Shown one piece after another: positions 14,541-48,800 of a DNA stretch of 64,000 bases. The position numbers were made by a program, and so were the translations under genes. This DNA is from Apoderus coryli (lineage: Eukaryota; Arthropoda; Insecta; Coleoptera; Attelabidae). The stretch's first letter is position 1. The number at the start of each line of letters is the position of its first letter. Below the pieces are notes generated by a model. That model was not told the DNA's origin. It worked only from the letters and a program-made list of their open reading frames with translations, and did not search any database. The stretch is from NCBI GenBank assembly GCA_911728435.2, contig OU452211.1, positions 13,188,428 to 13,252,427 on the forward strand. The letters are read 5' to 3'.

Positions 14541-15883
14541 AGTTGACTCGAGAAATCTCTTCTTAAATGGAATTCTAACCTCAATATTGCTTTTATATTT
14601 TTCATTATTGGGTTGTTTACTGTGTGTGGCGATTAAAAAATTAAAAATATGGAATTATTTGACGAGGATCTTGATGTTTTCGAATTAATTGAACATGGAT
14701 TTCCAAGGAGGGTTTATGAAAGGCCGAATTATTTTTAGATATGGACAATTTAAATTTTTTTCAAAGATTTCGACTGACGAAGACTACGATTCGGTCTATC
14801 CTAGACCAAATTGAGCATTTTTACTAGAATTTGATGAGCTATGACAGCTTTCAATAGAAGATATTTTAGTAGGAAAGACCGAAAAGCGTCTTTGTGCTTA
14901 ACATACCTATTATATATATATATAGAGGTACTGAGGAAATAGTCGATATTAAAAAATAATAATAGAGGTATATACCTATGTATTAAAACCATAACAACTT
15001 CACGTTTACAGTTTATTGAATTATTAATCCACAAAAGAATAAATAAGCTAACAACTCTACTTATGTTCCCAGGTAAATAATAAACTAAAACTATTTTTGA
15101 ATATAAATCATAAAATATGTAAGTAGTAGTAGCACTCATCTAGCTAAATCTTATAATAGAAACAGATCAAATACTATGTATATGTAATAAATACATTTCA
15201 AATATATAACAATAAGAATAGATAAATTTAACAATGGAAAATAATAACAAAAAGTTAATTTTATTAATTTGAATGATGCCACAATAACTATGATCCAACA
15301 CTATCGATAGAACTTCTTTCTCGTTGGAAGTGTAGTTTGGAGGTCTCCTCTTTTTTTATGTATCACTAACTTCCATCGTATTACATGTTATATTAAAAAA
15401 ATGTATTAAATAATAAAATGAAAATAATTTTGTGGCATAGCGGACAAAATGACTGGTTTTTCCTACACAAGGGACTTTTGTGTAATTTAGCAGGGCCTCA
15501 GTCTAAACAAAGTCCCTTGTGTAGGTAAACCCAGTCATTTTGTCCGCTATGCCACAAAATAATTTTGTTTCTATTATATTTACGGACACAATTTAACTCT
15601 AGTATTTAATAATTTTCGTTCACATTCACAACCAAAATTAATGTTTACATTATGAATTATTATGAAAACAAAACTGAAGAGGTTAAAAGTTAAAATATTA
15701 CCTACTGCCCGACCAAAAAACTCCTCTTCATTGTCGGCTACCTTAAATTTGCTATGTTGACAAATTTACCCGATACTTAACTAAGTGCTATCTACTCATG
15801 ATTCGGTGCAATCAATTCCGTTCTTAAAATTTAGATGACCCTTAACTATTCTCTACTTAAAGTGTATGTGGTGCAAACGGGCA
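14541..15883 (+). mobile_element. PIF/Harbinger element, second copy (5'-truncated)
   Basis: It begins within sequence equal to about 13667 of the first copy, lacking the left terminal repeat, and ends with GTATGTGGTGCAAACGGGCA at 15883 followed by TAA at 15884-15886. It contains a second copy of the transposase N-terminal fragment (14649-14830). The outer left end of the first copy and this right end have matching TAA flanks, so 13439-15883 can also be read as one composite of 2445 bp. It hosts a 126-bp MITE at 15431-15556. Confidence 0.7.
15431..15556. mobile_element. 126-bp MITE with 9-bp target duplication
   Basis: Terminal inverted repeats of about 50 bp start TGTGGCATAGCGGACAAAAT and leave a short loop. 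AAATAATTT stands directly before (15422-15430) and directly after (15557-15565). A 9-bp duplication is typical of Mutator-like elements, so this may be a MULE-derived MITE. Confidence 0.75.
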
Positions 15884-19150: not shown

Positions 19151-20900
19151 AAATATATTGATATATTTATTTATTTATTGATTTATTTAAGATACACTGC
19201 CCAGACAGATAAATAATCCAATTAAAGGGCAGGAAAAATTACAATAAATATCTAACACTAAATTTATATTCTAAGAAATATATTTTTTATACAAGACAAA
19301 GTTGAATTAAAAATATCAATTTGCTCGGACACAGAGTTACAAGTATGGCACATAAAATATAAAGGGGAACGCAACAACAAATTAGTACGCGGGGCCGGAA
19401 CGTAAAATACGATTCCGTTATTACGTGTACGTAGATTTGGGACACACAAAGGAATCTGGCTTAAAAACTCTGGACAGTCCATTAATAATCTTAAAGAGCA
19501 ATACTAGAGCGGAATATTCTCTCCGAGTATTTAATGATACTAGATTAAAACGGTTTAACAGAATATCATGAGGAAACCCAATGGATGGATAAACCCCATC
19601 AACCCGAAACCACAGCAACTTGGCAAAACGACGCTGGATGCGTTCAATATTATTCATATGTATGGCATACATAGGATTCCATACTACAGATGCATATTCC
19701 AGTTTAGATCCGACAAATTTGTTGAAAAGAACAATGGAGTTTGAGGTGTCACAAACTCTTTCGAATTGCGCACAATAAAACCCAGAGATCTATAGGATGC
19801 TGAAACTATATTATTGTAATGATTAGTAAAGCTCAGTTTACCATCAAACCAAACACCTAAATCTTTAAACTCATCACAAGTTGTTAATGGACTATTATTT
19901 ATACAGTATGAAAATTTGACAGGGTTTATTTTCCGTGTATAGGAAACACTAAAACATTTATCAACATTCAGATAAAGATTATTACGGACACACCACTCAT
20001 ATACAACATTTAAATAGTCCTGAAGATGAGAACAATCTTCAGTACTATTAATGACAGAATATACTTTGAAGTCGTCAGCATATAATAACGAACTATTTGT
20101 CAAGCCACTAGAAATATCATCTATAAAACACAGGAACAACAATGGTCCAAGGACAGAGCCCTGGGGAACACCAGATGACACTTTAAAATTTGCGGAACGA
20201 AATCCTCGACTTTCCACATACTGAAATCTATCCTTCAGATACGACTTCGAAAGCAGCAGTAAATTATAACATAGTCCATAACGACACAGTTTACGCAGTA
20301 GAACACCATGATCAAGTCTATCAAAGGCTTTAGAAAAATCAGTGTAGACCACATCTACCTGACCCCCGTTATCAAGTCGCTCAGTTAAAAATTGTGTTAA
20401 AACCAATAAGTTAGTTGACGTAGAACGACCGGGAAAAAAGCCATGTTGTACCGATGAAATCTGACGCCTAACATGACTCATAATAATATCATGGAGCACA
20501 AATTCAAAAACTTTAGAAAAACACGACTGTATGGAAATTGGTCTATAATTTGAAATATCCTGTTTATCTGCCTTCTTATGAACCGGCGTCACTCTAGAAG
20601 ATTTCCAATCAGAGGGGAAACTACACGATCGCAAAGAAACATTGAATATTGTACACAATGGTTTAGCAAACACAGTGGCACAATCCCTAATTACAAAAGA
20701 TGGTATACCATCAGGACCCGATGTAAATTTAGCTTTTAACCTTCTCAAAGCTCCATAGACCTCCGTCTCAGTAATCACACGATCCGGTAAATTAGACACA
20801 TTCACAACATTAAACAATCCCTGATCAATATCAAATTCTTGAGATGCAACGTATGATGCTAATGATGCTAATTATTATCGGCAACATACTCTCTAAATTT
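19150..20900 (-). pseudogene. Decayed LINE (jockey/CR1-like) reverse transcriptase, 5'-truncated
   Basis: The minus frame 20817-19684 carries the reverse transcriptase domain with its motifs in order: DGIPSFVIRD, YRPISI, TDFSKAFDRLDH, SSGVPQGSVLGPLLF and the catalytic LLYADDF at codons 245-250. The frame shifts near 19755, continues with RIQRRFAKLLWFR (19672-19480), shifts again near 19480 and continues to about 19264. A further break lies near 20850, upstream of which the frame is open only to about 20900. The 3' UTR ends in an AAATAAAT-type tail at about 19150-19190. There is no endonuclease domain, so it was 5'-truncated at insertion and has since decayed. Confidence 0.85.
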
Positions 20901-24702: not shown

Positions 24703-27700
24703 ATGTTACTCCTAATAAAAATGATAACGTTTCAAATCATCTTTCAAAACACTCAGGGTGTTTTAAAATTACCGGATATTGGACAAGCATATGAACCATT
24801 CTTCGTCCTATATAACCGAATATATATTGAAAGCAACTTGGAACTCAATCGTATCCAATACATTATGGGTTATACAAACGGCACTTGTGAACTTTCAGCT
24901 ACACAAATTATAAAATACAACCCTCGACCAAGATATCTTCTGACTGGTATCACAAATAATATAAACTACATTGGAACTTCGGATGCAATTAATCAAATAT
25001 TCGTGGAAAGTATCGGTGATTTAGAACGCCAGTTGATAATCTTATTGACGAGTATGGACGTGCGTATTATTGGTTTTTTCAAAATTACCATTTGCGAATG
25101 TTTTAACAACACGAAATTGATGGATTATGCGGTTTCGGTTATAGGACAACATGGTATCACGCATTTCTATTTTAATTATTGCGACAAAAATGGGGTTCAT
25201 ATGATTTTCTATGATTTGCTTTGTGAGAAAACAGTTGACATAAAAGGTAATTATACTTTCTTTATTCGTTTAACCGAGAAATATAATTGTCCAGGGAGTT
25301 TAAATACGAGTATATCTGACTTCGAGAAATAATTATTATGGATTCTTATAAATATCTGTTTAATTACACTGAACCGAAAAGGTACGTGATATTAATAAAA
25401 AAGTGCTTCAAATCAATGAACGTCAACATTAAATTTGAGCCGATGATGGGTGACATTAATACAATGAACGTTCGTACATAAATTCGGTAGCGAATTCTGT
25501 ACGTTGAATTAATAAATAAAGAACATAAATTTATGCTCGCCGGTTATTGATCTTACGAATGATGGACATTAATTTATAACTCCTGTACGTTAAAACGATG
25601 TTACCAGGTTGTTAATGTTACGAACGATGAAGATTAGTTTATGTCTCCAATACGTAAAACCGATGTTAGCTGGTTATTAATGTTACGAACGATAAACATT
25701 AATCTATGACTTTTGTACATTAAACCGATGTCTGAAGGTTATTAATGTTACGAACGAGGAACATGAATCTATGACTTTTGTACGTTAAACCAATGTTAGC
25801 TGATTATTACATTGGGTTATAATAATTGTTTTACGTAATTGTGTTCGCCAGAAATTATTATTACGAAAGATTGAGATTATTGTTCTGTATTCAATCAATA
25901 ATCGCGAGCATATAGGTACATATGTATTATATGTACTGCAAAGTGCAGTATGGTTCAAATATACTAGTACCAATGGTTAGAGAATTTAAAAGCCCAAATA
26001 AGACTCAAAATTATCTTGCTGTACGTCCATTGATTTGATGCACCTGCTTTGTAAATAAATTAAATCATATTTGTACAACACTCGAAATCTAAAGGCTTTA
26101 TTTTTAATTTAGTTCATATTAAATGCTAAACATGTCAGATTCGTCTGTCGTCTGAGGTGAAAAGGGAGAAAAAACTATATTTGGAAACTAAAGTCCGCGG
26201 AAATTCTTCTAAACAAAATTGGAAATTATTACGAGATCTAAACATTTATGCAAGGGAAAATATCACAATACCGTCTTTTATTCATGATTTTTTTTGGCCA
26301 CTTCTACCAACAATCCGGACCCAGGAACGATCAATTTTTACTTAGGTAATAAAATTAGACCTGATATTAACTTTGAATTTACAATGGTGGATCATGGGGA
26401 GATACTTGATGCATTGCTTGGGATTAAGTCAAATGCTGTAGGCAGTGACATGATCAGTATTGATATGCTAGTAGTAGTAGTAGTTGTCCGTTTATAATGC
26501 CCTTTATACAGCATCTATTTAATTACTATATAGAAACGAGGAACTTCCCAACATGTTGGAAAGAAGGTTGTCATTTTGGGAACGGCAGTGTCTGGGCCCA
26601 GGACATTGCGTAGTGCCGCAGGGCATCCAGGAATCATTGCCTTTTTTTATGTATCAGGGTTTTTGTTGTTGTTATTATTATGCAGTTATCTTTAGTATTG
26701 CTAATATGTTAAGCTAGGAGGCTGTGCATCGACTTCGCCTTTTGTGTAACTTTTCTAGGTTCTCAATAAAGTCATTTATTATATTATTATTATTAATCAA
26801 AATAACTGGTTTTTAAGTAAACAGTGTGCGCCTTTAGAATATACTTATAGAACCCATAAGTACGGTTGAATTGCAGATTTTCTTCCTTTAAGGTTTATTA
26901 TATGTTCTTCTATTTCTTGAACTGTTTTAGCACAAAATAAAAAAGATTCTTGAGAGTCTTTTATTGTGTACTTTAAATGGCTTATCTTTCCACTGGCACC
27001 TTTGGAACATAGCTTAGCGGATAGCACTAAATATCCATGAAGAGCCCATAAAATTTCTCCCCTCGTATCGGCGGGTTTTCAACATTACAAAGGAATACCG
27101 CACTGTGTTTTTTTTCGTTTTAAACTGACTTTAGTTTTGTACTTTTCTAAATGGTACTTATATAAAAGGATTACTACTTACCTTATATTTCTACATTTGT
27201 TGTATTATTTGGGAACAAATTTTAAAAATAGATTTAGGAACACACTTCACTTTTCAACTGTATACATTTAACTAAACAAAACAAAAAGGACGCGTAAACA
27301 AAAAGTCTATGAGAATGTCATAATGTCAATGTTTTGAGTATTCAGTCTATGGTCCGGGTGCATTGATTTGCGCGCGTTATTCAGAATTTAATGGTTAGAT
27401 TCGTAAAATTAATGCTTAGCATCCATTGAATCAACGATGATCGTTTATTAGTTTTTATGTTCGCTGTTCATAGGTGTATGATTTACAAATTATTGTGTTA
27501 AAGGCGAAGAGCATAAATTAATAAATTTAAAACATGGAAGCAATAAATAGTGACATTATATTGATGAAAAAAACCATAAATTTTCGATGTCTTGCATTTA
27601 TTGATTAATGTTTCATCGTACATTGTTTCTATGTATGAAATTATTAATTTATGATCAAAATTCAGTGTAACAATGACCAATTCATAATATTAATGTTCAA

Positions 27701-29334
27701 AATATTGATGACAACCATTCATTGGTTTTACTTACAATATTTTTTTCAGTGATAATGAAATTGCTAAATGTTGGTATTTCAAATTATCATTAAGGTCTGT
27801 GTAAAGCTGATGATGGAAAGAAAAACTCCGAAACAAGTTATTTTTTTATTATTTTTGGAAAATAAAGATGGTGGAGAGGATGAATATATGTCCCTTTTGG
27901 AATTTTAATTCCAAATCGTCATTCTGCTGTTTACTGGGTTGGTTGTTAACTTGACCGCAATTAACCTTCACGATCAAGATCCAATCTAAGGGGCGTCGAA
28001 AGAAAATGCTTTCCCAGTGAGATATTTTGTGAGAAATTTGCCGTTCCTATATTTCTACGCTATTTCCAATTCATTTCAAACCAGGACAATCAGCAATAAT
28101 AAAAAACTGGTTTTAATTTTCAGATCTCACCGCAGGGGAAAACTTGTACAATTTACCATACAACTTTGGACTAAAACCAGTACGTGTCGTCGAATTCATA
28201 ACAAACATGAAATCAATCGATAATACTTACGTCATGAAACAAAATTTATTAACTAAAATAATTAAAAAACTTTTAAACAGCACAATTACTTTACAAAAAG
28301 TTCCCAATTATAAAACTGCGAGAGATATGATAAAAACAAATAAAGCAGACATCATACTTCCTGCAGTGTCATGGACAAAGTATTCTAAAGCACTGTATTA
28401 TTCATACCCCCACATGATAAACAATGTAGTAGTTCTAATACCGAATTTTAAACAAAATCACGCACCACGCGCAATGCGTGTGTTTCTAACAAATCCAATA
28501 TACTTTTTGTTGTTTATAATACAAGTAATTCTTATCACCATTATCGAATGGGTGTCATTTAAACTATCAAATTATAAAATAGCATTGTCATTATATAATC
28601 TTTTGTATATTTTTATGAACACACTGCTTGGAGTTCCGTTCAAATATTTTCAAAACCGCAAATCTATATTATCAATGATATGGTTAATGTACATTATAAA
28701 TGTAAATATTTGGTTTCAAAGCCAACTTTTAGAAGAAATATTGAGTTTTGACATCGTTACACCGCTTGAAAATATCTCTGAATTACGCAATTCTACTTTA
28801 AACATTTATTCTTCAACAGAGTTAAAGTCACTTTTGGAAAATTCAAAACTAATTGACGATGAAAAAGTTATTTATCTTGATTTCGTGAATTTGTCAAACC
28901 AGATAATTCTTAATAAAAGCATAAATAACTTGTACATTTTATCTTATTCGTTTATAATGGATATTAAAGAACGCTGTAAACACCATAATATGGTTTTCGA
29001 CTATAAAATACTGCCAGAACCTGTTGTAGCAGCTCTTGGATCATATGCCTTAAAGAAAAGCCTAATATTTGAAAATATTATGAGTTCAAGCATTATCCAA
29101 GCATCTCAGTATGGTTTTAACGTGATGAATAAACACAACCAATATCATGCTAGAATAATTAGATCTGCTAATACAAATGAAAATAATAAGGATACAATAA
29201 TTACTTATGAAAATATTAAAGGCATTCTTTGGGTGATGTTATTTGGTTATCAACTAGCGATCATTGTATTTATTCTTGAAATCGTTCATAAAAAAACTAG
29301 GAACTCCAATAATGTAACAATCAATAGCCCGTAA
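24703..29334 (+). CDS. Divergent ionotropic receptor (IR), chemosensory ligand-gated channel
   Basis: Two exons, 24703-25246 and 28124-29334, join at AAAG|GTAATT and TTTTCAG|AT in phase 1 to give 584 aa. IRs are glutamate-receptor-related cation channels in the dendrites of sensory neurons. Exon 1 encodes the extracellular N-terminus. Exon 2 holds ligand-binding lobe S1 (ADIILPAVSWTKYSKALYYS), membrane segment M1 (about residues 305-326), a pore loop (FMNTLLGVPF, about 345-354), M2 (about 362-384), lobe S2 and M3 (about 548-569). The short N-terminus, low similarity to antennal IRs and large last exon fit divergent, probably gustatory, IRs. The single intron (2877 bp) contains a DNA transposon. 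The hydrophobic start is a weak signal peptide; an upstream exon cannot be excluded. Confidence 0.85.
25480..25810 (+). repeat. About five 65-bp tandem repeats
   Basis: Units of the type GTTATTAATGTTACGAACGA ... TGTACGTTAAACCGATGTTA follow each other with a period of about 65 bp and 75-90% similarity, decaying towards the outer end. The inverted copy is at about 45930-46250. Confidence 0.75.
26130..26800 (+). pseudogene. LINE ORF2 fragment captured in the CACTG element, copy 1
   Basis: Frames contain QNWKLLRDLNIYARENI and VDHGEILDALLGIKSNAVGSD, the linker between endonuclease and reverse transcriptase of LINEs. The 3' end has TTCTCAATAAAGTC and a TTA-type tail at about 26765-26798. The middle (most of the reverse transcriptase) is deleted near 26520-26580, while the second copy at 44558-45600 retains more of it. 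Confidence 0.7.
26845..27066 (-). CDS. Conserved uncharacterised frame in the CACTG element, copy 1
   Basis: About 73 codons on the minus strand, with EILWALHGC, SAKLCSKGASGKISHLKYTI and FCAKTVQEIEEHI, ending in LWVL and a stop. The copy at 44275-44496 keeps the frame with very few changes. The tract looks like the end of a protein (soluble, helical) rather than random AT-rich sequence, but I do not recognise the family. It may be an exon of the element's own protein or a captured host exon. Confidence 0.4.
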   Translation of the reverse strand, partial: TRGEILWALHGYLVLSAKLCSKGASGKISHLKYTIKDSQESFLFCAKTVQEIEEHIINLKGRKSAIQPYLWVL

Positions 29335-29398: not shown

Positions 29399-32300
29399 CA
29401 AAGATTAATCTACACAATAGATAGTCAGCCCAATGCATTAAAATCAGAACATCTCTAAGTATGCCAGCCACTACGTGGCGTATACTAGCGTGCACAGCAT
29501 AGAGCAGTATTGTCACAGCCAGAAACCGTTTTGTAGTTTATTAAAATCAGAAACAAAATGCAACGTATAACAATTATTTACATCATTTGCAACAGATATG
29601 CACCGGCAATGCTGTATTGTCAGAGAGAGAAATTGATGAAATTCTGTATTAATCTGGAGGGGATACGCAGGGAGGGTAGAAAAAAAAAACAAGCCAATGT
29701 GGTGTGTGTCGTGCTGTTGCCGATTCGTCGGTAAAAGGAACACACAGGGTGATTTATTACAAGTACAGTATTGAAATAAAAGCCTAATCTCTATGAATTA
29801 AATTTAATATAATAATATTTAATCCATGTCATACATGTTTCAAGACTAGACCAGTCCCATGATCAGTGGCGAACAATCATTAAATGAAAAGCTTTTAGAT
29901 AGAAACATACTTTTGACTCCATTGTAATAATTTGTTGATGTATATAAAAAAATCTAAATATCTAAAAGCTAAAAGCTTTTGATTTAATTATTGCTCGCCA
30001 CTGATTATGGGACTGGTCTAGTCTTGAAACATGTTGTATGGCATGGATTAATGATTATTAGGTATATTAAATTTATATCGTGGGTATTAGACTTTTATAC
30101 CAATACCGAAATCAAGTAGGTATTAATGTACATTATTCTTTGTCAAAATTATAACTCCACTTAAGAATGGACTAGGTACTTTTTCAATTTATTACATATA
30201 TTTTAAATATTTCACGTAGACAATGTGGCAAAGATGTAACAAGATTATAATACCTATAATAAAAAAATTATCAGTGCTACCTATATTATATTAGGTATAC
30301 CTATTATAATAGTCTGTCTCTGTTATTGTGATTTTCATTGTTTTCATAGGTACCTACTGATTTTGTTTTGAAGAGAATTAATATATTAAATTTAATTTAA
30401 TCTTTGATACTACCAAAGATTAATAAGTTAATCTTTGGTTGCGTAGTTATTTTTTTGTGAATATTTTTAGCTCTCCATATCATATATGTATATATGGAGA
30501 CTATTAGTTTCATGAAAAACAATTTTTTTTAATTTCACCGGAAATACTTGTTTTTGGTCATTTTATACATAAATAAGTAGTTTTAAAAAAATGTCTGTCT
30601 GTCTGTATCCACGAAAACGCAAAAACAGCTTAACAGATTTTAACCAAATTTGGTACAAAAATACTATTGGACATGGCAAGGAGCTGATTAGATTTTGGAA
30701 AACATTGAGCGTAGGCAAAGGGTTTAAAAGAGGGTTCAAAAATTAAAAAAAATCATAGTTCTTAAACTTATCCGAAATACTGCATATTTTTTTACGCATT
30801 TAATTGAATATAACCTAAAATATTGAACATAAAATATTAGACCACATTGGCGTTCGAAAATAGTGTAAAATAGGGTAAAAAAGATTTAAAAAAAACGTAT
30901 TTCTTAAAAATAGCAGAAATATTAACTAGTTATTTATAGTTTTGATAGAATATAACCTATAAAATGTGTCATGAATAACTTACTTTCATAGGCGTCCGTA
31001 AATAGTGGAAAAGGGGTCAAAACATAAAAAATATATATTTCCTAATCTTATTCGAAATATAGAATAATTTTTCATAGATGTGATACAATATAAGCTAAAA
31101 AATATTCCATAAAAGAATTGGTTCACATGGGCGTTCGAAAATAGTTTAAAAAAAGGGTCAAAAACGAAAAAAAACTTGTTTCCCAAATATTCCAGAAAAA
31201 TTGGCTAATTATATAAGTATAGCTTTCATATAAGATAACCTAAAAAATGCAGAATAAAATTTTTATTTACATAGGCGTTCGTAAATAGTAAAAAAAGGGG
31301 TAAAATAAAAAAAAAATAAAATGTAAAAAATTTTATATTTAACTAGTTGAATTGGTGTTAAAAATACACGACATAAATTAATGTTCCATAGGCGTCGGTG
31401 AAAATTCTATAAAAGGGTCAGAAAAAATTTGTATCCGTGATAACTCAAAAACCACTTAACGGATCACCTACAACATGCAGCATAACAATGTTGTTTACAT
31501 AGGCGTTCGTAAATAGTAGATAATTGTGTTATTTTATTAGTATAAATATTTTTGAGTAAATTAATTCGGTTATAATCGATGGGTAGAATCTTTGGAGTAA
31601 AATACATTTCACAAAAACCCTGGACCATATTTCTCAATAGATTCAATTTTCATTAAAAACAGATTAAAAATTCTAATTTTTTACATCCTGCATTTCGAAA
31701 CCGTATTTTTTTAAATAATTATTGTCATGCTCGAAATTTCAAACCTTATTTACTTCAGCAACTTGTAAAAAGCACAGCCTTTTTAATATTAATATTTCTT
31801 AAAATCGATATTACGCGATAACGATGACTTTCTATCAATATCACAGAAGGATACATTTATTACGTATATAATTTGTTAGATTTTACATCTCCGAATTGAA
31901 ACACACGCAAAAAATGTGCATAAAAAAGTTAGGGTAGCATTTCACGCCTGTTTGCCCCTTTAATTTACCCGCCTCTGAGATTTATTTTTTCATAATGTTA
32001 ACGACAAGTTGAATCTGCTGTTTGAGTTTGATCCTTAAAACTGAATCAGGTAATAACCGGAAGTCCTATCTATAACGCCAAATTTCGTTAATTTAAATAT
32101 AACTTTTTGATGCATCCTTATATCCGAAATTTAAAATTAAATGATTAAAATAATATTATTTTAGTCATTTAAAATTATTGTCTAAAACATTTAATGAACC
32201 AGCCCTGTATATTTATACTATTATAGTAATTTCTTTTATTTTCGTCCATACACATTAATCTTTGCGTAGATAGGTATACGTATACCATATAATTTTATAA

Positions 32301-33045: not shown

Positions 33046-33623
33046 AAAACTTAAAAAAAAAGAGGAATTTTAGACCCTTTAGGTTCAGTAATAAAATGGA
33101 TCACAGGAAACCTGGATCAAAATGATGCTGAACGATATGATAAAGAAATACTAGAACTTCAAGATAATCAAAATAAATTAAAAGAAAATACTCTTTCTCA
33201 AATGACTCTATTACGATAAACAATCAATAAATTTCAAGATATAATTGCAAATATATCTCATAATCAACTATGTTAAAAACAAGAATAGAAAACATTGAAA
33301 AAACTGTTAATGAAGTAGCTCTTATTGAAACCAAAGACTATCAATATTTTCAAACTCACGTTGTGATTAATCAATTGACAATGATACTTCAATTAATATA
33401 TAATATATTTGACGAAATGGAAATCGCTATTTCTTTCGCTAAGTTAAACACGTTACATAACTCTATAATAAACCCTTATGAATTATTAACAGAAATAAAA
33501 AACTTCGAAAAACAACTAAAAAATGATAAATTACGCTTAGAACGGACTATGGAAAATATATTACAATTTGAGAAGATAATATTAAAAGCTATTCGAAAAA
33601 GTTTGTTATCACTTTTATAGAAC
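33046..33623 (+). pseudogene. Errantivirus-like env (F-type fusion protein) remnant, proximal part
   Basis: The translation resembles the fusion subunit of Env proteins of insect errantiviruses (Ty3/Gypsy elements with an env gene), related to baculovirus F proteins. After a basic stretch near 33050 comes a hydrophobic segment with the LDPLGSVIKWITGNLD pattern, then a long coiled-coil-rich region (33270-33620). In-frame stops and frame changes near 33216 and 33270 break it, and a LINE interrupts it at about 33623. No gag, pol or LTR is visible beside it. It is a dead fragment of an old endogenous insect retroelement. Confidence 0.65.
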
Positions 33624-36521
33624 GTTCAGTGTTTAAGAAATAAAATTTTGGATTTTGAAATGGTTCTCAAAGACCAACTATTTGATTGCTTGTGTATAAA
33701 CGAGCACTGGTTGAATGTAAATGAATTTTCTATTACAGGTTGTGGGGATTACAGGGCTGTCGCGGGTTTCTGTAGAACTGCAAAGTATCATGGAGGTGTA
33801 GGAATATACCTAAAAAACAATATTGAGTACCGAGTTCTGAATATCTCCGGAAATTCGGAAGAGGTGAACTGTGAGGCTGCGGGAGTTTTCCTAAAAACCT
33901 TTTCTACCCACATTGTCACTATTTATAGATCGCCAAATGGAGATCTCTGTCGGTTTTTTGAGATTATGGCTAAGATACTGGAGAGTATAAATTTGTCCCA
34001 GAGTCTCATTGTCACGGGAGACTTTAATGTCCATTTTGAAACGGCTGATCCAAGAGCGGCCGACCTGTGTGATTTTTTTCGGGCTTATGGCTTGCATGGC
34101 TCTGTGTCTTTTCCAACTCGAGGTAGTGCGTGTCTGGATAATGTATTCACAAATATAAATGTTAACCCCACAACATTCAAACCTTTTAATTTACATCATC
34201 TGTCCGATCACGATGGCATTTCTTTCACCTTTGAAGGGCGCACTTCCCCGACGGAGCCTGTTGCAAAAATTAGTTACAGACCCATAACTCAATACGGACT
34301 TTTTAACTTGTACAATCGAATCGAGAATATTAATTGGGACTTTATCGATGATAAAAATATAAGCATTGATAGTAGATTTCTAACGTTTACTAATGTCATT
34401 GCAAATACAGCTGAAAGTTGTTTTCCTCTTATCTAAAACAGTCACTGCTGGATCAGCGCTGGGTCGCATAAATTGGTTCAGCGATGATTTGCGCAGGATG
34501 AGAGATCTGCTATGCACCATGCATTTGATTCATAAATCGGATTCTCAGTCTGTATCTAAAGTCGCCTTGAGACACTATAAAAAACAATATCGAGCTGAAC
34601 TTTCTAAGGGCAAAAGAAGGGTTTATGAGGAGTATATTGCATCCGCTATTAATAGGCCTGCTGCTGTGTGGAGACTGGTCAAGGATTGGGAATCAACTCC
34701 AAATCTCGGGACAGCTGAGAACTTGACTGCGCATATTTTAAATGACTACTTTACAACTGCGGCTGATGATATCATAAAACAGCTACCAGCCACATCGGTC
34801 ACTTTTGAGAAATATATGTCTCCCACTAGAGCTGTTGGATTTAGTTTGAGAACGGTAACCTTTAATGAAGTACGTGAAAAACTATCAGGTATGGAAAACA
34901 CAAAAAGCTCGGATTGTTATGAGCTTAATGTTAGGATTATTGGGACTTTAAAGAATCTGCTAGTGGTGCCGCTTACTAAGTTGATAAACCATTGCATTGG
35001 TGACGCTGTATTTCCGGCGGTCTTGAAGGAGGCAAGGGTTATTCCAATCTACAAAAATAAAGGATCGGTTGATGATCCCAGTAACTATCGACCAATATCG
35101 ATCTTGCCAATTTTTTCGAAAATCTTTGAGTCTATTATTAAAAATCAAATAACTGAATATTTTGAAGCAAATAATCTCTTTATGCAAGGTCAATATGGCT
35201 TTCGTAATAAGAGATCTACTATTCTTGCAATTAATAACCTTTTGGAATATGTTTCGGATGGCATTTGAGCGGGGCTGTGACACCTTTGCTTCCTTTTATG
35301 ACCTCACTAAGGCTTTTGACTGTGTCTCACACGAGATACTTCTTCAGAAACTCTCTTACTATAACTTTGATGTTGACAGTGTTGCCTTGGTTGGCTCTTA
35401 TCTCAGCGATCGTTTTCAGCACGTTTTGTATGGGGGACGATACTCGGAGAGACGACGGGTTGGACGGGGGTGCCCCAGGGGTCGGTTTTGGGACCTTTAT
35501 TGTTTTTAATATACGTTAATGATTTATACAAATTTCAAGAAGAATCAAATATAATCGTCTTTGCTGACGACACAACTAGTCTGAATAGATATCGACCAAA
35601 CGACCCTTTAGGGGAGTTCGTTAATGCTGTTGAGACTGACATAGGCAATTGGTTTCTGGCAAATGAACTGAGCTTGAATCAGGCTAAAACTCAGAGCATG
35701 AACTTTACATTGCGTTCTGCGCCTATCGATCTTCAGAGCGATGTTCGCGTGAAGTTCCTTGGGGTTCATCTTGATCCTAAATTAACCTGGGAGAGTCATG
35801 TTCGAGAACTTGGGTGCTCGCTGTCCAGGGTCATATATCTGATCAGAAGGCTTGCGCAGAGTGTTTCAATCGCCAGTCTGTTAACGGTATATCATGGTTA
35901 TTTTGTTTCCCGTATGTCGTATGGTATTTTGAACTGGGGACATAGTTCCCATGCAATGAAAATCTTCAAGCTACAGAGGAGATGTTTACGTACAATGTTG
36001 GGGCTCGGTTGGCGTGACTGCTGTAAAAAGTATTTTGTTGAACATGGCCTACTTACTTTGCCTTCCTTGTACATCTTAAACTGTCTTGGCTACATTCGAA
36101 CAAATGCCTCGCATTTCACTCTACACTCTGATATGCATAATTATGGTACGCGAAATCGCAATGACATATTGCCTGAGTTTCACCGCCTGTTGAGGACTAG
36201 GAAAGGTTCTGACTATTATTGTGTCAAATTTTATAATAAGCTGCCGTCTCACAGAAAGAACCTGGTGAAGTCCAATTTACCAAATGTATTAAATCATTTT
36301 TGATATCTCAAGCTGCTTTTTATACCTTTGAGGACTATTTCAGAAGCGATATTGTAAGATTTTTTTAGATTTTAGTTTGTTTTATGTTGTTGCTATTTTA
36401 ATTTGTTTGTAAGCCTTTCTTTGTTGCTGTAACTTTGATTAATTTTTGTTATTTTTTGACGTACTATACATGTTTTGTAACATAAGATGGTGAATAAATA
36501 TATCTATCTATCTATCTATCT
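33624..36521 (+). mobile_element. LINE (non-LTR retrotransposon), 5'-truncated, inserted in the env remnant
   Basis: An apurinic-type endonuclease domain (33648-34436: CINEHWL, GDFNVH near 34015, SDHDG near 34204) is followed by a reverse transcriptase (34430-36303: NYRPISILP, YDLTKAFDCVSHE, VPQGSVLGPLLF, FADDT near 35552) and the C-terminal HNYGTRNRNDI motif near 36140. Frameshifts near 34430, 35268, 35465 and 36290 disable it. The left end lies just inside the endonuclease domain, so ORF1 and the 5' UTR are missing. The right end is a TATC repeat at about 36494-36521, a short-repeat tail typical of some insect LINEs. Jockey/CR1-like by motif pattern. Confidence 0.85.
36494..36521 (+). repeat. 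TATC microsatellite tail of the LINE
   Basis: About seven TATC units follow AATAAATA and mark the 3' junction with the env remnant. Confidence 0.8.
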
Positions 36522-36880
36522 ATATTAGAAATACCATTAATAGAATTAGAATTGTACCAATATTATCAATTATTTCCTGTACCAATTCCCGATTCCGAAA
36601 AATATTTCCAAATCAACCATGTGAAGTACAATTAATTTCTTATCAAAACAATATTACAAACTGCCAATTACTTCGAATGATATTAAACGACATACACATA
36701 TCCAAAATATCGGAAAATAAGTGGATAATAACAACTCCTTCAGAAGAAATCGCGACAGCTACGTGTAAAAATAAAGTTAACAAAATACCTATTAAAGGAT
36801 CCTATCTATTGTAATCATCTCCTAATTGTGAAGTGAAAATTAACACTATAACATTACAAAGTTATGAAACAAATCAACTA
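36522..36880 (+). pseudogene. Errantivirus-like env remnant, distal part
   Basis: Translation in changing frames continues the env-type protein after the LINE, with a proline-rich LFPVPIPDS stretch and later a cysteine-containing extracellular segment. At least two frameshifts and a stop are visible; the membrane anchor is not recognised. The reading direction matches 33046-33623, which supports one env gene split by the LINE. Confidence 0.6.
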
Positions 36881-36954
36881 AAATACCAAATTGGGCTTGT
36901 TTAACAAAACAAGACTTAAAAAATCCGAGAGTTTGTCTGTCAACCACTATACTT

Positions 36955-36998
36955 TCACCAGACGGCCGTTTCGTCGATCCACGACTCATCAGTGGTGA
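36955..36998 (-). ncRNA. Type I hammerhead ribozyme core
   Basis: Read on the minus strand from 36998: stem I 5' strand TCACCA; CTGATGA (36992-36986); stem II GTCG, loop TGGAT, CGAC; GAAA (36972-36969); a short stem III from A-CGG-CCG-T; C as the nucleotide before cleavage (36961); stem I 3' strand TGGTGA (36960-36955). Stem I pairs 6 of 6 and stem II 4 of 4, and every conserved core position is present. Minimal type I hammerheads with a very short stem III are known from Penelope-like elements and retrozymes, where they often act as dimers. Predicted cleavage lies between 36961 and 36960. Activity is inferred from the motif only. Confidence 0.8.
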
Positions 36999-37137
36999 TC
37001 GGTCAGTAGTTGACAGCCAAATTCTCGTAAATAATGTGGTATACACCCCACACGGTACATAGATGTAAAAGGATGTGTTTGGCGACATCTAGTTTTATCG
37101 TTGGTAGTACGCCGAGTGAACAACAGTTCCTATATCG

Positions 37138-37200
37138 ATTATACTGACCGATGAGTCGTGGATCGACGAAACGGCCGTCTGGTGAAAGCATGGTGGTGTG
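37138..37200 (+). ncRNA. Defective inverted copy of the hammerhead
   Basis: The plus strand repeats the minus-strand hammerhead and its flanks (CTGACCGAT, then GAGTCGTGGATCGACGAAAC and GTCTGGTGAAAG) but lacks about 10 nt that hold the stem I 5' strand and most of the CTGATGA box. It should therefore be inactive. With the copy at 36950-37012 it forms a palindrome with a spacer of about 125 bp. Confidence 0.7.
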
Positions 37201-38655
37201 AAACAAATTTCCAACATAACTTAAAGTCTTGTTGCTTTATGTAACAAGCAATTCTTAAATAAAGCCTCCCTGCTAGGGGATTCGGGCGCATCTAGTGTTG
37301 GCAATAGGATATATTGGAGTTGTTACTTCTTGTCCGGCCATCGTTTGTGAACTGTGTTTCACCCGGCATATTGCCTGTTCACGCTAGGTGTCGCAAAAAC
37401 ATCTCTCTCTCAAAAATAGTAATCCTAATTTAGTGATTAAAATTAATAACAAGGACACTGAAGTGGATAAAAATAGAGTTAAAAAGTATACTTAATGAAT
37501 AAACATTTAAAAAAAATAAATTATTTTCGATAGGAGGTGTACACACTGTATAGTAGATTTAAGTTTAATATTTTTTATTTTATTTTATTTTATTTTAAGT
37601 AAGCAATAATGTTTAGACAGGTAAGCATAATAATTTAAGTAGATTAAGTAAATATTGAGTGCATTGTACATAATTGTAGATATGTTAATTTTAGAATACA
37701 ATAAAAGTTAAGTCGAAACAGAATGGTTATATCAATACCCTAACCACCCCTTATGGATATGGTTAACACACAATATCACTGGTCCTCCTCCTTCAAAACG
37801 CTACGGAAATATGTCATCAGAGTCAACTGCTTTGTTGTTTTTTAGTTGTAAAATATTCCTATTTACGCGGCAAATCCTTTGCAAAGATGGAGTATTATTT
37901 TAAACAGTTACCAATTTAAAATAAATTATGTAAAATCAGAAATCGGGTTGTCTAACATCTAACGAAAAATTAGACTATTCACATTTTTTTTTATTTGGAA
38001 GATAATTTTCCAAATAGATTATCGTAACATTGCATTGCTTATAATACCAAAATAGATCCAATTTTAAAAAAGTATTTTACACGGTTGTTCAGAGAAAGTA
38101 GCTGATCAATAATTTAAGTTATAATTTCATAAACGCGATCAGCTTAATCTTGAAAATGGTTGTATTTTATGGAGTTACCGTGTTGTATTTCCTAATAAGT
38201 TACAAGAAGTTTTGTGAAAAGAAATTCGTTTAAGTCACATGGGCACAAATAAATGTCAAACTATGGCAAGACATATTTTTGGTGGCCAGTGCTAGATCAG
38301 ACACAAATTCATTTCATGAGTTATTTTTTCTATTAAAACTGAAGACAACCAATTAGGTGACCTGTCGTAAATAAACGAAAGTACTTTGGCACTTCTTTAG
38401 ATCTTGAGCCTGACAACAATGACAACAACGTCAAATTAATTTGAATTATATTGGTAGAATTTTAAGGTAAGTTGTCTATCTATCTAGTTAAGTAAATATT
38501 TACGAATATGTAAATACATATAAATATTGCATTGTAAATGTAATATTTAAGGGAGAATAGTGTAGTGTATTTGTATATTATATATTTTTTTTATTATGGC
38601 TTTAACAAACTGTTATTTACCCAGCAGCATTTGTATACATTCTTTTGGTTTACCG
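37201..38655. other. Intergenic, no gene recognised
   Basis: AT-rich with a TTTTA run at about 37575-37597. No env continuation, LTR or host exon could be identified. Confidence 0.4.
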
Positions 38656-39803
38656 CACAGAAAAAAAAAACTTGGTTTATCCAAATATAAAATATTATTT
38701 AGAGGTGAATTTGCTAGTTTTCGCAAAATTTTTGTTAAAGTAGTAAATGTAGTTATCAAGTATGAGTAACTACATTATCTAAAAACGACAATTTTTCCTG
38801 CTAAGCTGATATCTTCTCATCTAAACGAGACTTGTATGTGCATTAGTTAAATAAGATTTCAAATTGTGAACCTATATAAAATTTTATTTGCGCTAAATGA
38901 GTTCGGTATTCTGTTTGAATTAGGTATTGTACACCTACAGATTTCCATACGTACCCACTTAGGTGTAGCTATTATTATTAAGAAAATACTTAATGAGGTA
39001 ATTAGGTAGGTACCTATACGTACCTAACTATTCTCAAAAATCGTTTTATTAAACCCAAAACTAAATTAGTTCTAATAGGAACATATACCTACCTACCTAT
39101 AAATTTTATTTATCTGCTTTAGTATATTAATGGACCTAGGTATGTACATTATAATATTTAAGTGTAAATAAGATTTTAACAACTAAGTAAGTACATAGCT
39201 AAAATAGGCACTGATTTAATTAAATCTGTGTAATAGTTATTTTACCTAATAGTTCTCATTTACAAAATTTCTATCCTCCAAAATACCTATCGAATTATTT
39301 TATCTGGTAGAGATGGGAACCTATAGTTGTCTACATAAGTCGTCATTCTATTCCAGCCAACGGTTATTCCCCGTTCTACCTAATGTGTTTGTCCCCGCTG
39401 CTAGTCCACGTACCTAAAACCCTTTGTAGGAGCAGGTGCCGACAACAACATCTTCTATGTGTACCACGTTGTACCTAGCGCGTCTCATTTGGTGTAGAGG
39501 GAGGGGGTTTCATTTTGGTATTTTTTGATTAGAGTCTTGGCGTCGCTCTAACTAGGATCTAGTTATTTGGTGTTCTAATCTGAAGATATTTTAATTTAAT
39601 ATATTAAATTTTGATTTATTAATAGTAAGTGTATACCTAGATATTGATATCCCAATTTCTACAAGTGGTGAGGACGGACTAGGTATACAGACAGTAACAG
39701 ATATGTATTAGGTATAACAATGTGCATCCAACATAATTAAGTGTACTTAGTGATTAGTTTGGTGTGTTGAGTTTTGTTAAATATTCATATATTATTAATA
39801 ACA

Positions 39804-39867
39804 ATGGAGGAAACAAAAGAAATATTAATTAGCTGGAATTTGGGGGAGCTCGTTGTTACTTTTCTCG
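39804..39867 (+). CDS. Candidate first exon of an element-borne gene, copy A
   Basis: AACAATGGAGG opens 21 codons (MEETKEILISWNL...) ending at TCTCG|GTAAGTA, a strong donor. The same exon with one amino-acid change (G to W) is kept in copy B at 60026-60089. The ISWNL.EL pattern recalls the start of SAM-type domains found in some insect repeat proteins, but it is too short to assign. The downstream exons are not found, so they are lost or unrecognised. Confidence 0.35.
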
Positions 39868-40539
39868 GTAAGTAAATTATAATAATTATTATTTAATTAT
39901 TTATTTTTATAATTTTACGACCAATGCAAACAATCTTATTTCATGGCAATATCAGATATAATCTTTGGCAATAGATACCTATCTAGTTACGTATTATTTA
40001 GTAGGTACTTAATCCTAATTTAAAATACTTTTTCTAATTTAATCAATCTTAATATGGTATTCCTCCATTTACAGCAAGTAAACAATAGTTTAGATGGGTT
40101 CACGATAATATATTTAATTTGCCAGGGACGGATTAATTTTTAGCAAATTAATGCAGTTTTTCAAAAGAAGTTACATAAATATTTTAGCTGGGTATGACTT
40201 TTTTCTTTTTTTGTAAAGGTATGTATTGATTTGTTTACCATTTTACCAATGTCTGTGAATTAGGAGTTGTGGATTGGAATTCTTATCATTCCTCGTACGT
40301 ACCGGTAGAATCTGTTATTTTACTTAGTTTCCTCATAAGGAATCTAAAGTTTCTTTGATAATTTTTTTTTTGTTTCAGCGTCATTGTTTTTCGGAAAAAC
40401 TCGATTTTTTTTTTAAATAGCCAATACTTACATTTTAGGTTTATTTGTCCCCAAATTAGATAACTACCTAGTACCTAGTTAGTAGATCTTGAAATGTATA
40501 ATATTTATAGTAGAAAATGAATTAGGTATAAACTATATT

Positions 40540-41400
40540 TTACAAGGCCGTATTTTTTTAAGAAAATGCATTTTTTTGCGATTTTAGTTTTTATTGCTTT
40601 CTGACATTATTTTTACTGATATAAAAAACTTAAAAACTCTCATTGTTACTTTTTTATGAAAATAATATAGCGTTTACAAATTTTCATTACGACGTTTCGT
40701 TTTTGAAAAACCATCAACTTCGATTTTTTAAATACGGCCCTCGATTTTTATTGTTAAATTTAAAGCCATTTTCAAAACAAAAATAGATGTAACGGAATGG
40801 TTTCAACAAGTTTTCAGTATTTTTAGCTGTTATTTAAACTTCAAGAAAAACCGCCATAGTTTGGCACTTATTTTGCGTAAAAGAAAGAAAGGCGTTTCTT
40901 TAATAATTTCAAAAAGCACAAACATTTTAACTAAATTTAAAAAACTGCGTACAGAATAAAATGTGCTGACAGAAATAACTGGCAAATAATTATAAATAAT
41001 TTTGATTAACGTCGAAAGAATTTTATTGCCAAAATTACTAATTAGGTATATACTCTGCATTCAGTCAGTTAAGTCCCAAACTATGGCGATTTTTCTTGAA
41101 TAAGTTTAAATAACAACTAAAAATACTGAAAAGTTGTTTAAACCACCTATTTTTGAATTGAAAATGGCTTTAAATTTAACAATAGAAAATCAAGGGCCGT
41201 ATTTAAAAAATCGAAGTTGATGGTTTTTCGAAAACGAAACGTCGAGTCTCCTCAAAAAGCAACAATGAGAAAGTGCTTTTCATTTTTTTTATATATCTGT
41301 AAAAATAATGTCTGAAATCAATAAAAACTAATATCGCAAAAGTTGATTTTTAAGAAATTCTCGAAAACTGCTAAATTTACTTTACTTTTGAAAACACCAT
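40540..41400. repeat. Internal inverted repeat of copy A
   Basis: About 340 bp at 40540-40880 is complementary to about 41060-41390, with GATGTAACGG-type sequence in the loop. Frames crossing it (40800-40960) are by-products of the palindrome. The same structure lies at 58560-59330 in copy B. Confidence 0.65.
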
Positions 41401-41689
41401 TTAAAAGGTGTTTAAATTGTACAACTTTTCTCTAAGTTAACCGACATTGTCACTCCGACCGTTTCCAAGATTAACCAACCCTAGTTGTTTAGGTGCTGAG
41501 CAATATTCTCAGGAATTCCGGCAAAGGATTCAGCCGCATTATACCTACCCACTTTAACATGTGTAGATTGAAGTTTGACTATATATACCTAGCTTAGGTA
41601 TATTACTTATACCTAATACAAGATTTTCAGTAGGCTTAAGTTTATTTTAAAAAAATAAATAAATAAGACTACTACACTAAAAACCTGAT

Positions 41690-42250
41690 GGTGGTTCAGA
41701 TAAAAAAACGTAAGCACCACAGGGACCCCCAAATCTTGTCTACCCCTTCTAGAAAAAATTACTAGAAGAGAGACAAACACTATTTGTCATTTAAATAAAA
41801 ATATATTGTATGTTAGCAAAGTTTATTAGTTATTTTAGTAATGTAGAAAAATTTACTGGATAGACATTAAACGAGTATCATCACTAAAATAACTAGTAAA
41901 CTTTGCTAGCATACAATATATTTTTATTTAAATGACAAATAGTGTTTGTCTCTCCCAGACAAGGAGCATATGTAAACTATTCAAGAATATTATCTAAATG
42001 ACATAATGTCTATCCAGTAAATTTTTCTACATTACTAAAATTACTAATAAACTTTGCTGGCATACAATATATTTTTATTTAAATGACAAAAAGTGTTTGT
42101 CTCTTTTAGACAAGAAGCATATGTAAACTATTCAAGAATATTAGGTATCTAAATGACATAATGTCTATCCAGTAAATTTTTCTAGAAGGGGTAGACAAGG
42201 TTTTGGCTGTCCCTGTGGTGCTTACGTTTTTTATCTATCTGAACCAAGTT
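41690..42250. repeat. Foldback with inverted and tandem subrepeats at the right end of copy A
   Basis: GGTTCAGATAAAAAAACGTAAGCACCACAGGGAC opens it at 41694 (shown here only by its type: GGTTCAGATA then CGTAAGCACCACAGGGAC) and the complement closes it at about 42245. Inside, blocks with TTGTCATTTAAATAAAAATATATTGTATG and AATGTCTATCCAGTAAATTTTTC types alternate in both orientations three times. Copy B has the equivalent at 57658-58225. Confidence 0.65.
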
Positions 42251-42873: not shown

Positions 42874-45800
42874 ATGTGTCCGATTAAAAAGATTAATAAT
42901 AAGCAATGCCTGACATTATTCCTTATTGCTGTAAGCTTATTTTGTTCAGGTGTAACTGAAAATAATAATATTATTGTTAATAGGAATACAAATAATAGTT
43001 TTGTGAATAGTAGTAATTTAAATAATTATTCTGAAAAGGCGATTTATAATACACGTGACTATAGTAACGAACTCACCGATTATAACATCAGTAAAGGTAA
43101 GACCAAATTAATTCTCAAATAAATTATTACTAACGTATTCCAATATAAATACAGGGTGAGTCACGAGGAACTGTACATACTTCTACCATAAGTAGAGGCA
43201 CGTTAGGGGATTATCAAATGACCATTAAAAAATGTCTCCTTGTTTTGGTTATTAATATACAGGGTGAATTGTGGATCTTCACCAAAAGAATGTTTCGTCA
43301 TATCTTTTCAATTTATCTCATTTTTTTATAAAAGTGTGTATTGGTGTCTGGCAACCAACTGACATATTCAGAATTGAAAAAATCCAGGTCCGTCTTCGAG
43401 AAAATTTGTGGGATTGCTTCATATTCAACACTTCACCCTGTATATAATTTTTCAAAAATCTGATATAATTTTTTGCAGAGAGCATAAATAGACAGTTAGA
43501 CCTGGGTATTTGAATTTTTTGTTACACTCACCACACAGTTCCAATTAAAGATTCATTTTAGAACCAAATTGAAAATTGGCAATAACTACACTGAAAAAAA
43601 TATTGTACGTAAAACCAATGAATGGTTGTCATCAATATTTTGAACATTAATATTATGAATTGGTCACTGTTACAATGAATTTTGATCATAAATTAATAAT
43701 TTCATACATAGAAACAATGTACGATGAAACATTAATCAATAAATGCAAGACATCGAAAATTTATGTTTTTTTTTCATCAATATAATGTCACTATTTATTG
43801 CTTCAATGTTTTAAATTTATTAATTTATGCTCTTCGCCTTTAAAACAATAATTTGTAAATCATACACCTATGAACAGCGAACAGAAAAACTAATAAACGA
43901 TCATCGTTGATTCAATGGATGCTAAGCATTAATTTTACGAACCTAACCATTAAATTCTGAATAACGCGCGCAAATCAATGCACCCGGACCATAGACTGAA
44001 TACTCAAAACATTCACATTATGACATTCTCATAGACTTTTTGTTTACGCGTCCTTTTTGTTTTGTTTAGTTAAATGTATACAGTTGAAAAGTGAAGTGTG
44101 TTCCTAAATCTATTTTTAAAATTTGTTCCCAAATAATACAACAAATGTAGAAATATAAGGTAAGTAGTAATCCTTTTATATAAGTACCATTTAGTAAAAT
44201 ACAAAACTAAAGTCAGTTTAAAACGAAAAAAAACACAGTGCGGTATTCCTTTGTAATGTTGAAAACCCGCCGATACGAGGGGAGAAATTTTATGGGCTCT
44301 TCATGGATGTTTAGTGCTATCTGCTAAGCTATGTTCCAAAGGTGCCAGTGGAAAGATAAGCCATTTAAAGTACACAATAAAAGACTCTCAAGAATCTTTT
44401 TTATTTTGTGCTAAAACAGTTCAAGAAATAGAAGAACATATAATACACCTTAAAGGAAGAAAATCTGCAATTCAACCGTACTTATGGGTTCTATAAGTCT
44501 ATTCTAAAGGCGCACACTGTTTACTTAAAAACCTGTTATTTTGATTAATAATAATAATATAATAAATGACTTTATTGAGAACTTAGAAAAGTTTCACAAA
44601 AGGCGAAGTCGATGCACAGCCTCCTAGCTTAACATATTAGCAATACTAAAGATAACTGCATAATAATAACAACAACAAAAACCCTGATACATAAAAAAAG
44701 GCAATGATTCCTGGATGCCCTGCGGCACTACGCAATGTCCTGGGCCCAGACACTGCCGTTCCCAAAATGACAACCTGACTTCTATCATTTACATATGTTC
44801 CGAGTAGAGACACAGCAGACTCCCCAAAGCCCAGGTAACCCACAATAGCCAGCAACAAACCATGATCAATGCGGTCAAATGCCCCTTGCGTAGTCCAACA
44901 GCAGCAATGCCGTCAATCGACCCTGATCTACCGCCCCCAATGCATCATCCAGTATTTTAAGTCATGTCGTGGAGCAACTGTGACCCTGACGGAACCCAGA
45001 CTGGACCTCCGACAACAACCCATGCCCATCAAGATATGTTTTCATTTGATTGCAGATCAATAACCTTGGAGATCGCTGAGAGTATATTAATCGGTCTATA
45101 AGATCCTTAAATGTTGATGGAGTTTTAGTTTTGGGATTGGAATGACATTGGCTTCTTTCCAACATGTTGGGAAGTTCCTCGTTTCTATATAGTAATTAGC
45201 TAGATGCTCTATAAAGGGCATTATAAACGGACAACTACTACTACTAGCATATCAATACTGATCATGTCACTGCCTACAGCATTTGACTTAATCCCAGGCA
45301 ATGCATCAAGTATCTCCCCAAGATCCACCATTGTAAATTCAAAGTTAATATCAGGCCTAATTTTATTACCTAAGTAAAAATTGATCGTTCCTGGGTCCGG
45401 ATTGTTGATAGAAGTGGCCACAAAAAATCATTAATATTATCAACATCATGAATAAAAGATGGTATTGTGATATTTTCCCTTGCATAAATGTTTAGATCTC
45501 GTAATAATTTCCAATTTTGTTTAGAAGAATTTCCGCGTACTTTAGTTTCGAAATATAGTTTTTTCTCCCTTTTCACCTCAGACGACAGACGAATCTGACA
45601 TGTTTAGCATTTAATATTAACTAAATTAAAAATAAAGCCTTTATATTTCGAGTATCGTACAAATATGATTTAATTTATTCACAAAGCAGATGCATCAAAT
45701 CAATGGACGTACAACAAGATAATTTTGAGTCTTATTTGGGCTTTTAAATTCTCTAACCATTGGTACTAGTATATTTGAACCATACTGCACTTTGCAGTAC

Positions 45801-48800
45801 ACATAATTCATATGTACCTATATGCTCGCGATTATTGATTGAATACAGAACAATAATTTCAATCTTTCGTAATAATAATTTCCGGCGAACACAATTACGT
45901 AAAACAATTATTACAACCCAATGTAATAATCAGCTAACATTGGTTTAACGTACAAAAGTCATAGATTCATGTTTCTCGTTCGTAACATTAATAACCTTCA
46001 TACATCGGTTTAATGTACAAAAATCATAGATTAATGTTCATCGTTCGTAACATTAATAACCAGCTAACATCGGTTTTACGTATTGGAGACATAAACTAAT
46101 CTTCATCGTTCGTAACATTAACAACCTGGTAACATCGTTTTAACGTACAGGAGTTATAAATTAATGTCCATCATTCGTAAGATCAAGAACCGGCGAGCAT
46201 AAATTTAAGTTCTTTATTTATTAATTCAACGTACAGAATTCGCTACCGAATTTATGTACGAACGTTCATTGTATTAATGTCACCCCTCATCGGCTCAAAT
46301 TTAATGTTGACGTTCATTAATTTGAAGCACTTTTTTATTAATATCACGTACCTTTTCGGTTCAGTGTATGGTACTGTACAATAATGTTTAGTTATTAAAA
46401 AGAAATCGTAAAAATAGACAGAAACGACACACACTGTGCTCTAGTATGGTAAACGCCATAATTTGAATTGATTTACAGGGCCGGATTTAAAAATCTGGCA
46501 TATCTGGTTCATCCCAATAATTTACCCTGCATGTAACTTTTTCCACCCGTAATAGACAGAAAACAGAAAAAAAATGATTGTAATAATCTAGTTTTCTTAT
46601 TTGTTTGAGGAAAACTCATGTGTCTAATTATTTTAATCGGAATGAAATGAACAAGCCAGGGAAATGTTTATTCATAAATTAAGAAATAAAATAAAAAACA
46701 CTAAAATATTAAAATGGAATAGTGGGGAAAAGTTGTGTGATGTTTAGACACCCATTTTTTCTAAATAACGTTTTCTTATAAATCGTTGTTTTGGGGTGCC
46801 CCAAGCCGTTTGAAAATTCCAAGTTAGCAAAAAATATCACTTTTAAAATATTAAAATGGAATAGTGGGGGAAAGTTGTGTGATGTTAAGACACCCATTTT
46901 TTCTATATGACGTTTTCTTATAAATCGTTGTTTTGGGGTGCCCTAAGCCGTTTGAAAATTCCAGTTTTTCGAAAATTTCGCTTTTTCAATAATATAAAAA
47001 TAAAATTAATATTTTGTGGAAAATGTATCTAATTTTTTTTACACCAGCTCGAAAAAAAATTACAAATGGATAGTCGTTTTTCTTCTGTTGATTTTAGACA
47101 AAAACATTCACGTTTATTAGCTCTCCATATCATATATGGATATATGGAGACTATTAGTTTCATGAAAAAAAATTTTTTTTTAATTTCACCGGAAATACTT
47201 GTTTTTGGTCATTTTATTAGCTCTCCATATCATATATGTATATATGGAGACTATTAGTTTCATGAAAAAAAAAAATTTTTAATTTCACCGGAAATACTTG
47301 TTTTTGGTCATTTTATACATAAATAAGTAGTTTTAAAAAAATGTCTGTCTGTCTTTTATAGAATTTTCACGGACGCCTATGGAACATTAATTTTTGTCGT
47401 GTATTTTTAACACCAATTCAACTAGTTAAATATAAAATTTTTTACATTTTAATTTTTTTTTATTTTACTCCTTTTTTTACTATTTACGAACGCCTATGTA
47501 AATAAAAATTTTATGCTGCATTTTTTAGGTTATCTTATATGAAAGCTATATATAATTAGCCAATTTTTCTGGTATATTTGGGAAACATTTTTTTTTCATT
47601 TTTGACCCTTTTTTAAGACTATTTTCGAACGCCTGTGTGAACTAATTCTTTTATATAACATTTTTTAGGTTATATTCTATCACAACTATAAAAAATTATT
47701 CAATATTTCGGATAAGTTTAAGAACTATGATTTTTTAAATTTTTGAACCCTCTTTTAAACCCCTTGCCTACGCTCAATGTTAATCACCACCTATAAATAT
47801 CCTGTAGTATTTTCGTACCAAATTCATCTAGTTAAATATCAAAATTTTTACATTTTAATTTTTTTTATTTTACCCCTTTTTCTACTATTTACGAACGCCT
47901 ATGTAAATAAAAATTTTATGCTGCATTTTTTAGGTTATCTTATATCAAAGCTATATTTTTCTGGTATATTTGAGAAACATTTTTTTTCTTTTTTGACCCT
48001 TTTTTTAAACTATTTTCGAACGCCTGTGTGAGCCAATTCTTTTATGGAATATTTTTTAGCTTATATTGTATCACAACTATGAAAAATTATTCCATATTTC
48101 GAATAAGTTTAGGAAATATATATTTTTTATGTTTTGACATCTTTCCCACTATTTACGAACGCCTATGAAAGTAAGTTATTCATGACACATTTTATAGGTT
48201 ATATTCTATCAAAACTATAAATAACTTGTTAATATTTCTGCTATTTTTAAGAAATACGTTTTTTTTTTAATCTTTTTTACCCCATTTTACACTATTTTCG
48301 AACGCCAATGTGGTCTAATATTTTATGTTCAATATTTTAGGTTATATTCAATTAAATGCGTAAAAAACTATGCAGTATTTCGGATAAGTTTAAGAACTAT
48401 GAATTTTTTTAATTTTTGACCCTCTTTTAAACCCTTTGCCTACGCTCACTGTTTCCCAAAATCTAATCAGCTCCTTGCCATGTCCCATAGTATTTTTGTA
48501 CCAAATTTGGTTAAAATCTGTTAAGCGGTTTTTGCGTTTTCGTGGATACAGACAGACATTTTTTTAAAACTACTTATTTATGTATAAAATGACCAAAAAC
48601 AAGTATTTCCGGTGAAAAAAAAAAAAATTTTTTTTTCATGAAACTAATAGTCTCCATATATACATATATTACATATATGATATGGAGAGCTAATAATAAC
48701 CAAAAAGTAGAACAGTTTTAACAATGCGGAACAAAGTAAAAAACAATTAAATAAACATTACGATTATAAAAGATGTTCAAAATGAAATCCATCTGCCTTA

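Follow-up and report, generated by a model that had tools for sequence, protein, structure and literature searches.

The minus strand of the 64,000-nucleotide stretch of beetle DNA analysed here (the window) carries at 36998-36955 a short sequence with the appearance of a type I hammerhead ribozyme, which raises the question of whether the motif is genuine and, if so, what kind of element left it there. The match to RF00163, the Rfam model Hammerhead_1, covers model positions 1-45, i.e., the full length, with no broken pairs, and it scores 33.8 bits, with an E value of 1.1e-6 when 601 bases are searched and of 1.2e-4 for the whole window. The gathering score of this model is 34 bits, and since the locus falls 0.2 bits below it, a default Rfam scan is silent here and the scan at the gathering score listed no match; that score is a curation threshold rather than a structural feature, and the alignment contains the core boxes and the three stems of the family, with stem I open. 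The boxes CTGATGA and GAAA and the C preceding the cut, which is predicted between 36961 and 36960 of the minus strand, are present as the preliminary description claimed, and so are a stem I of 6 bp and a stem II of 4 bp, the latter read from the sequence. What had been called a minimal stem III was found to consist of 2 bp with a 4-nt loop or, between two paired copies, of an 8-nt palindrome. The Rfam covariance search that had been proposed as a check, together with the shuffle controls given below, supports the assignment of 36998-36955 as a putative type I hammerhead whose core is complete. Weak Rfam matches on or beside the ribozyme (HIV-1_SD, ST7-AS2_1, sR20, and RAGATH-1) were discarded at E values of at least 3.8.

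The motif was also judged against chance. When up to three mismatches were allowed, the core pattern was found at two places in the window, on the minus strand with none and on the plus strand, in a second copy, with one mismatch, and it was not matched at all in 100 shuffles. A looser box pattern occurs at 35 places in public collections (one viral contig and 34 bacterial or archaeal sequences), none of which combines a stem II of at least 3 pairs with a stem I of at least 4 pairs, the first alone being present in three and the second alone in one, whereas the copy in the window has 4 and 6 pairs, respectively. Of 20,000 random flank pairs, none yielded both the inner 6-pair stem I and 13 unbroken pairs in an outer helix, the inner one alone being reached by 90 and the outer one alone by 10. 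The strict ribozyme pattern had no match in viral_contigs; these collections may omit records near the window's own genome. A chance match with no function would fit a score just under the Rfam gathering threshold, but in view of the shuffles, the stems of the box matches and the flank-pair control we rejected this origin as extremely improbable, and the same three controls bear out the original judgement that so many matched constraints are unlikely by chance.

The left hammerhead motif is larger than first described, as its stem I extends past an internal loop. Beyond the inner 6-bp stem and a 5x5 internal loop, an outer helix is formed by 37027-37004 with 36949-36926, in which 22 of 24 positions are paired, two of them as G-U, including the 13 unbroken pairs mentioned above, and the extended minus-strand hairpin thus occupies 36926-37027. 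Within these 102 nt, the best fold predicted is more stable than the hammerhead fold by 9.1 kcal/mol when tertiary contacts are not counted, and this difference counts against the predicted activity of the monomer. On the upstream side of the ribozyme, the second copy shows no homology to the left one, as 1936 of 2000 shuffles score at least as well; the outer helix is therefore without comparative support as a family trait.

The preliminary description saw no other sign of a ribozyme-bearing element, and this part of it is not supported, while the type I hammerhead with its complete core is. A degraded plus-strand hammerhead at 37142-37185 begins 143 bases beyond the first, forms an inverted repeat with it, and lies inside the same GC-richer, insert-like block. 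It scores 22.3 bits against RF00163 with an E value of 0.0074 for 601 bases and is absent from the whole-window list at E <= 1, thus its identification rests on homology to the left copy. In the alignment of the arms, 10 nt are missing from its stem I and core region, stem I is a single pair, and the fold is no better than that of shuffled sequences (z 0.47; 137 of 200 fold as well). Judged by its sequence, the second hammerhead is almost certainly dead.

Both hammerheads are parts of longer arms, the left one at 36895-37008 on the minus strand, comprising the ribozyme and a downstream part with a 6-bp stem-loop at its end, and the right one at 37142-37249 on the plus strand. According to the alignment, homology between the arms begins with the ribozyme and extends to the terminal stem-loop common to both; the stem-loops (left 36896-36913, right 37228-37248) were recognised by eye, and their 6-bp stems agree while the loops differ. 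The score of the downstream parts alone was reached by 2 of 2000 shuffles. With gap columns left out, 53 of 55 positions are identical in the ribozyme parts and 35 of 47 in the downstream parts (Fisher p 0.0027, for boundaries chosen after the alignment was seen). A ribozyme part better kept than the downstream part is the pattern expected of two family members that diverge while the ribozyme is in use, and we infer that the arms parted in this way, as neutral decay after one inverted duplication would be expected to give even divergence.

The arms lie in a block at 36893-37400 (508 bp, 43.9% G+C) that we take as the whole insert, with uncertain ends. The G+C of the entire window is 30.2%; over 36900-37399, eight of nine 100-base intervals have 0.41-0.50 and the ninth 0.38, compared with 0.26-0.31 in the intervals to the left and 0.16-0.28 at 37400-37749, with a return to 0.37 at 37700-37799. 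A further inverted pair is made up of a segment upstream of the right arm (37078-37141, plus strand, designated M) and its partner at the right edge of the block (37340-37400, minus strand); its score was reached by 0 of 500 shuffles, yet it is weak by nhmmer (E 0.018). Since the M pair interleaves with the arms, the block is not one simple hairpin. The segments 37028-37077 and 37251-37339 match only themselves within the window (nhmmer, E up to 1), and no further copy of the element, direct ones included, was found within the window. A comparison of the block with phages returned no match, in a collection that may omit records near the window's own genome.

Inverted arms of about 110 bp with matching 7-bp tips are what a fold-back or miniature inverted-repeat DNA element would have, its terminal inverted repeats (GCTTGTT...AACAAGC) happening to carry hammerheads. 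However, the GC-rich block runs 150 bp past the right arm, the terminal stem-loop of each arm also explains the tips, and a clear target-site duplication is missing: among 2000 random window pairs, 1400 and 699, respectively, had shared words as good as the best ones here, of 5 and 6 nt. We therefore regard a DNA element as unlikely. A 4-bp AATT duplication noticed by eye was dropped, because the shared words at two candidate right ends are not beyond chance.

We hypothesize, with somewhat better than even confidence, that the locus derives from a short, non-coding hammerhead retroelement similar to the retrozymes, two copies of which lie head to head in an insert that has since decayed; a Penelope-like enzyme may have moved this element. 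The Rfam match with its controls, the homology of the arms up to their common terminal stem-loop and the better preservation of the ribozyme part all count for this reading. It is further favoured by the long stem I with its internal loop and by the 2-bp stem III capped by a tetraloop, given as the invertebrate form in PMC7229834, and by the G+C of the block (44%), which fits the <45-50% reported there for animal retrozymes. As presented there, the metazoan non-LTR retrozymes (Cervera and de la Pena 2020), whose hosts include arthropods, are units of 150-450 bp repeated directly in tandem, each with a hammerhead of the canonical type I with contacts between loop 1 and loop 2. The locus has in common with them a type I hammerhead, a short stem III, a short non-coding unit and low G+C; stem I of the left copy has an internal loop. 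The difference lies in the layout, since the retrozymes are reported as direct tandem repeats, whereas the locus has two inverted copies, one of them broken, at a single place and with no direct copy in the window; moreover, the 360-bp inverted part is inside the 170-400 nt reported for retrozymes, and the whole 508-bp block is outside this range. As the tandem layout was looked for and not found, we use the name retrozyme-like for the locus instead of counting it among the retrozymes. The lack of a direct tandem copy, of a clear target-site duplication and of any other copy in the window speaks against the retrozyme-like reading, and so does the interleaving of the M pair with the arms, which a simple head-to-head insertion does not explain.

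A source element of this kind would be transcribed from tandem units into RNA that each of its type I hammerheads would cut. A host ligase would then circularise the monomer, and the circle would be copied into new sites by a reverse transcriptase from another element, with a Penelope-like one as the usual suspect. Cutting, circles and reverse transcription are steps that we would ascribe to the retrozyme-like element. The locus itself has an intact ribozyme motif, a broken inverted copy, homologous downstream parts, the same terminal stem-loop in both arms, and an insert-like composition. Its minus transcript could be cut once at most, by the left copy, so that no monomer would be released at the locus, and the ribozyme is here a relic. 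The ribozyme is of a kind already known; its inverted layout is unusual, and a single locus cannot tell such a layout from decay. In the open-access literature examined, we found no report of hammerheads in the inverted arms of an animal element.

The terminal repeats of Penelope-like elements can be inverted, and the arms could be inverted pseudo-LTR fragments of such an element, the coding part of which was lost. According to PMC11167929 and PMC7761336, Penelope-like elements bear type I hammerheads, some of them in pseudo-LTRs, and the weak stem III and the retroelement setting are likenesses to the locus. As reported in PMC7229834 and PMC7761336, animal type I hammerheads occur in short tandem repeats, i.e., retrozymes, and the minimal forms are dispersed or found in Penelope-like elements, the hammerheads of the latter being without helix III or loop contacts (PMC7761336). 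In contrast, stem I of the left copy is long and interrupted by an internal loop, and a 2-bp helix III can be drawn for this copy. With the stem III of the invertebrate form on one side and minimal hammerheads as the Penelope form on the other, we would liken the left copy, as far as its sequence tells, to a retrozyme hammerhead. Furthermore, a scan of 20 ORFs or pieces, in a window that has 80 ORFs of at least 70 aa, revealed neither a Penelope reverse transcriptase nor the GIY-YIG domain that usually goes with it. RVT_1 matches are present in three ORFs, which were assigned to LINEs, two by an adjacent endonuclease and the third by its relatives. A Penelope-like origin of the arms is possible but, in our view, doubtful.

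The segment 36893-37252 (360 nt) folds in silico as a rod on both strands, with the hammerhead domains opposed and z-scores of -12.9 and -14.1 against 100 shuffles each, and RNA transcribed across both arms is predicted to form a long rod that hides the ribozyme. These z-scores were dropped as a sign of RNA selection, because any inverted repeat yields such values. Facing hammerhead domains in a 360-nt rod would be expected if a viroid-like RNA with hammerheads in both of its polarities had been integrated as DNA, and a plant viroid-like RNA of 357-360 nt, FHVd-LR, shows that layout (PMC7461866), its likenesses to the locus being the size of about 360 nt, the rod fold and the opposed domains. 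However, FHVd-LR is described as a circular RNA in fig with both ribozymes active, whereas the locus is DNA with one ribozyme broken: the plus-strand copy, without its 10 nt and at 22.3 bits, leaves an intact ribozyme on one strand only, there is no second locus, more GC-rich sequence follows the arms, and the rod is what any inverted repeat gives. Thus, we consider integration of a viroid-like RNA to be very unlikely indeed. We also think it very unlikely that the locus is the DNA fossil of a short animal retroelement family with opposed hammerheads on each strand of a rod of about 360 nt, both RNA polarities of which once cut themselves. If other copies had the inverted layout, it would connect the retrozymes of animals with RNA agents that carry ribozymes on both strands; if the layout is simply a product of decay, the locus adds one more relic.

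The ribozyme had been placed at the end of an env remnant, which holds in part. An env remnant is present at 33264-33617 as a match to Pfam Baculo_F (E 2.1e-5, 23.7 bits, cut-off 24.1), but the piece beside the ribozyme, 36530-36901, which adjoins its block and has one frame open but for one internal stop, has no env match in Pfam. Between these two env-like pieces, at about 33600-36530, lies a LINE, the broken frames of which encode endonuclease and RVT_1 domains, and TATC repeats come after it; the LINE protein has no relative in viral_contigs, which may omit records near the window's own genome. A reverse transcriptase of 377 aa at 19684-20817 has relatives in Photinus, Tribolium, Plutella, and Araneus, i.e., in beetles, a moth and a spider, according to six rows with an organism name among the best 120 of 6131 matches.

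The window contains other repeats. Long inverted copies of one repeat element lie at 38661-42143 and 57765-61227, 95-100% complementary among the longest 25 of 138 pairs, and another long inverted pair at 25365-27751 and 43589-46368 consists of pieces that are mostly 97-98% complementary among the matches listed. At 15439-15548, Rfam mir-3938 matches both strands with 51.9 and 50.2 against a gathering score of 94, perhaps as a small inverted-repeat element. Repeat families of about 140 bp form arrays in both orientations at 5128-8435, 30452-31566, and 47102-48634, and the copies of one of these families have a TACTATTTACGAACGCC-like motif in common.
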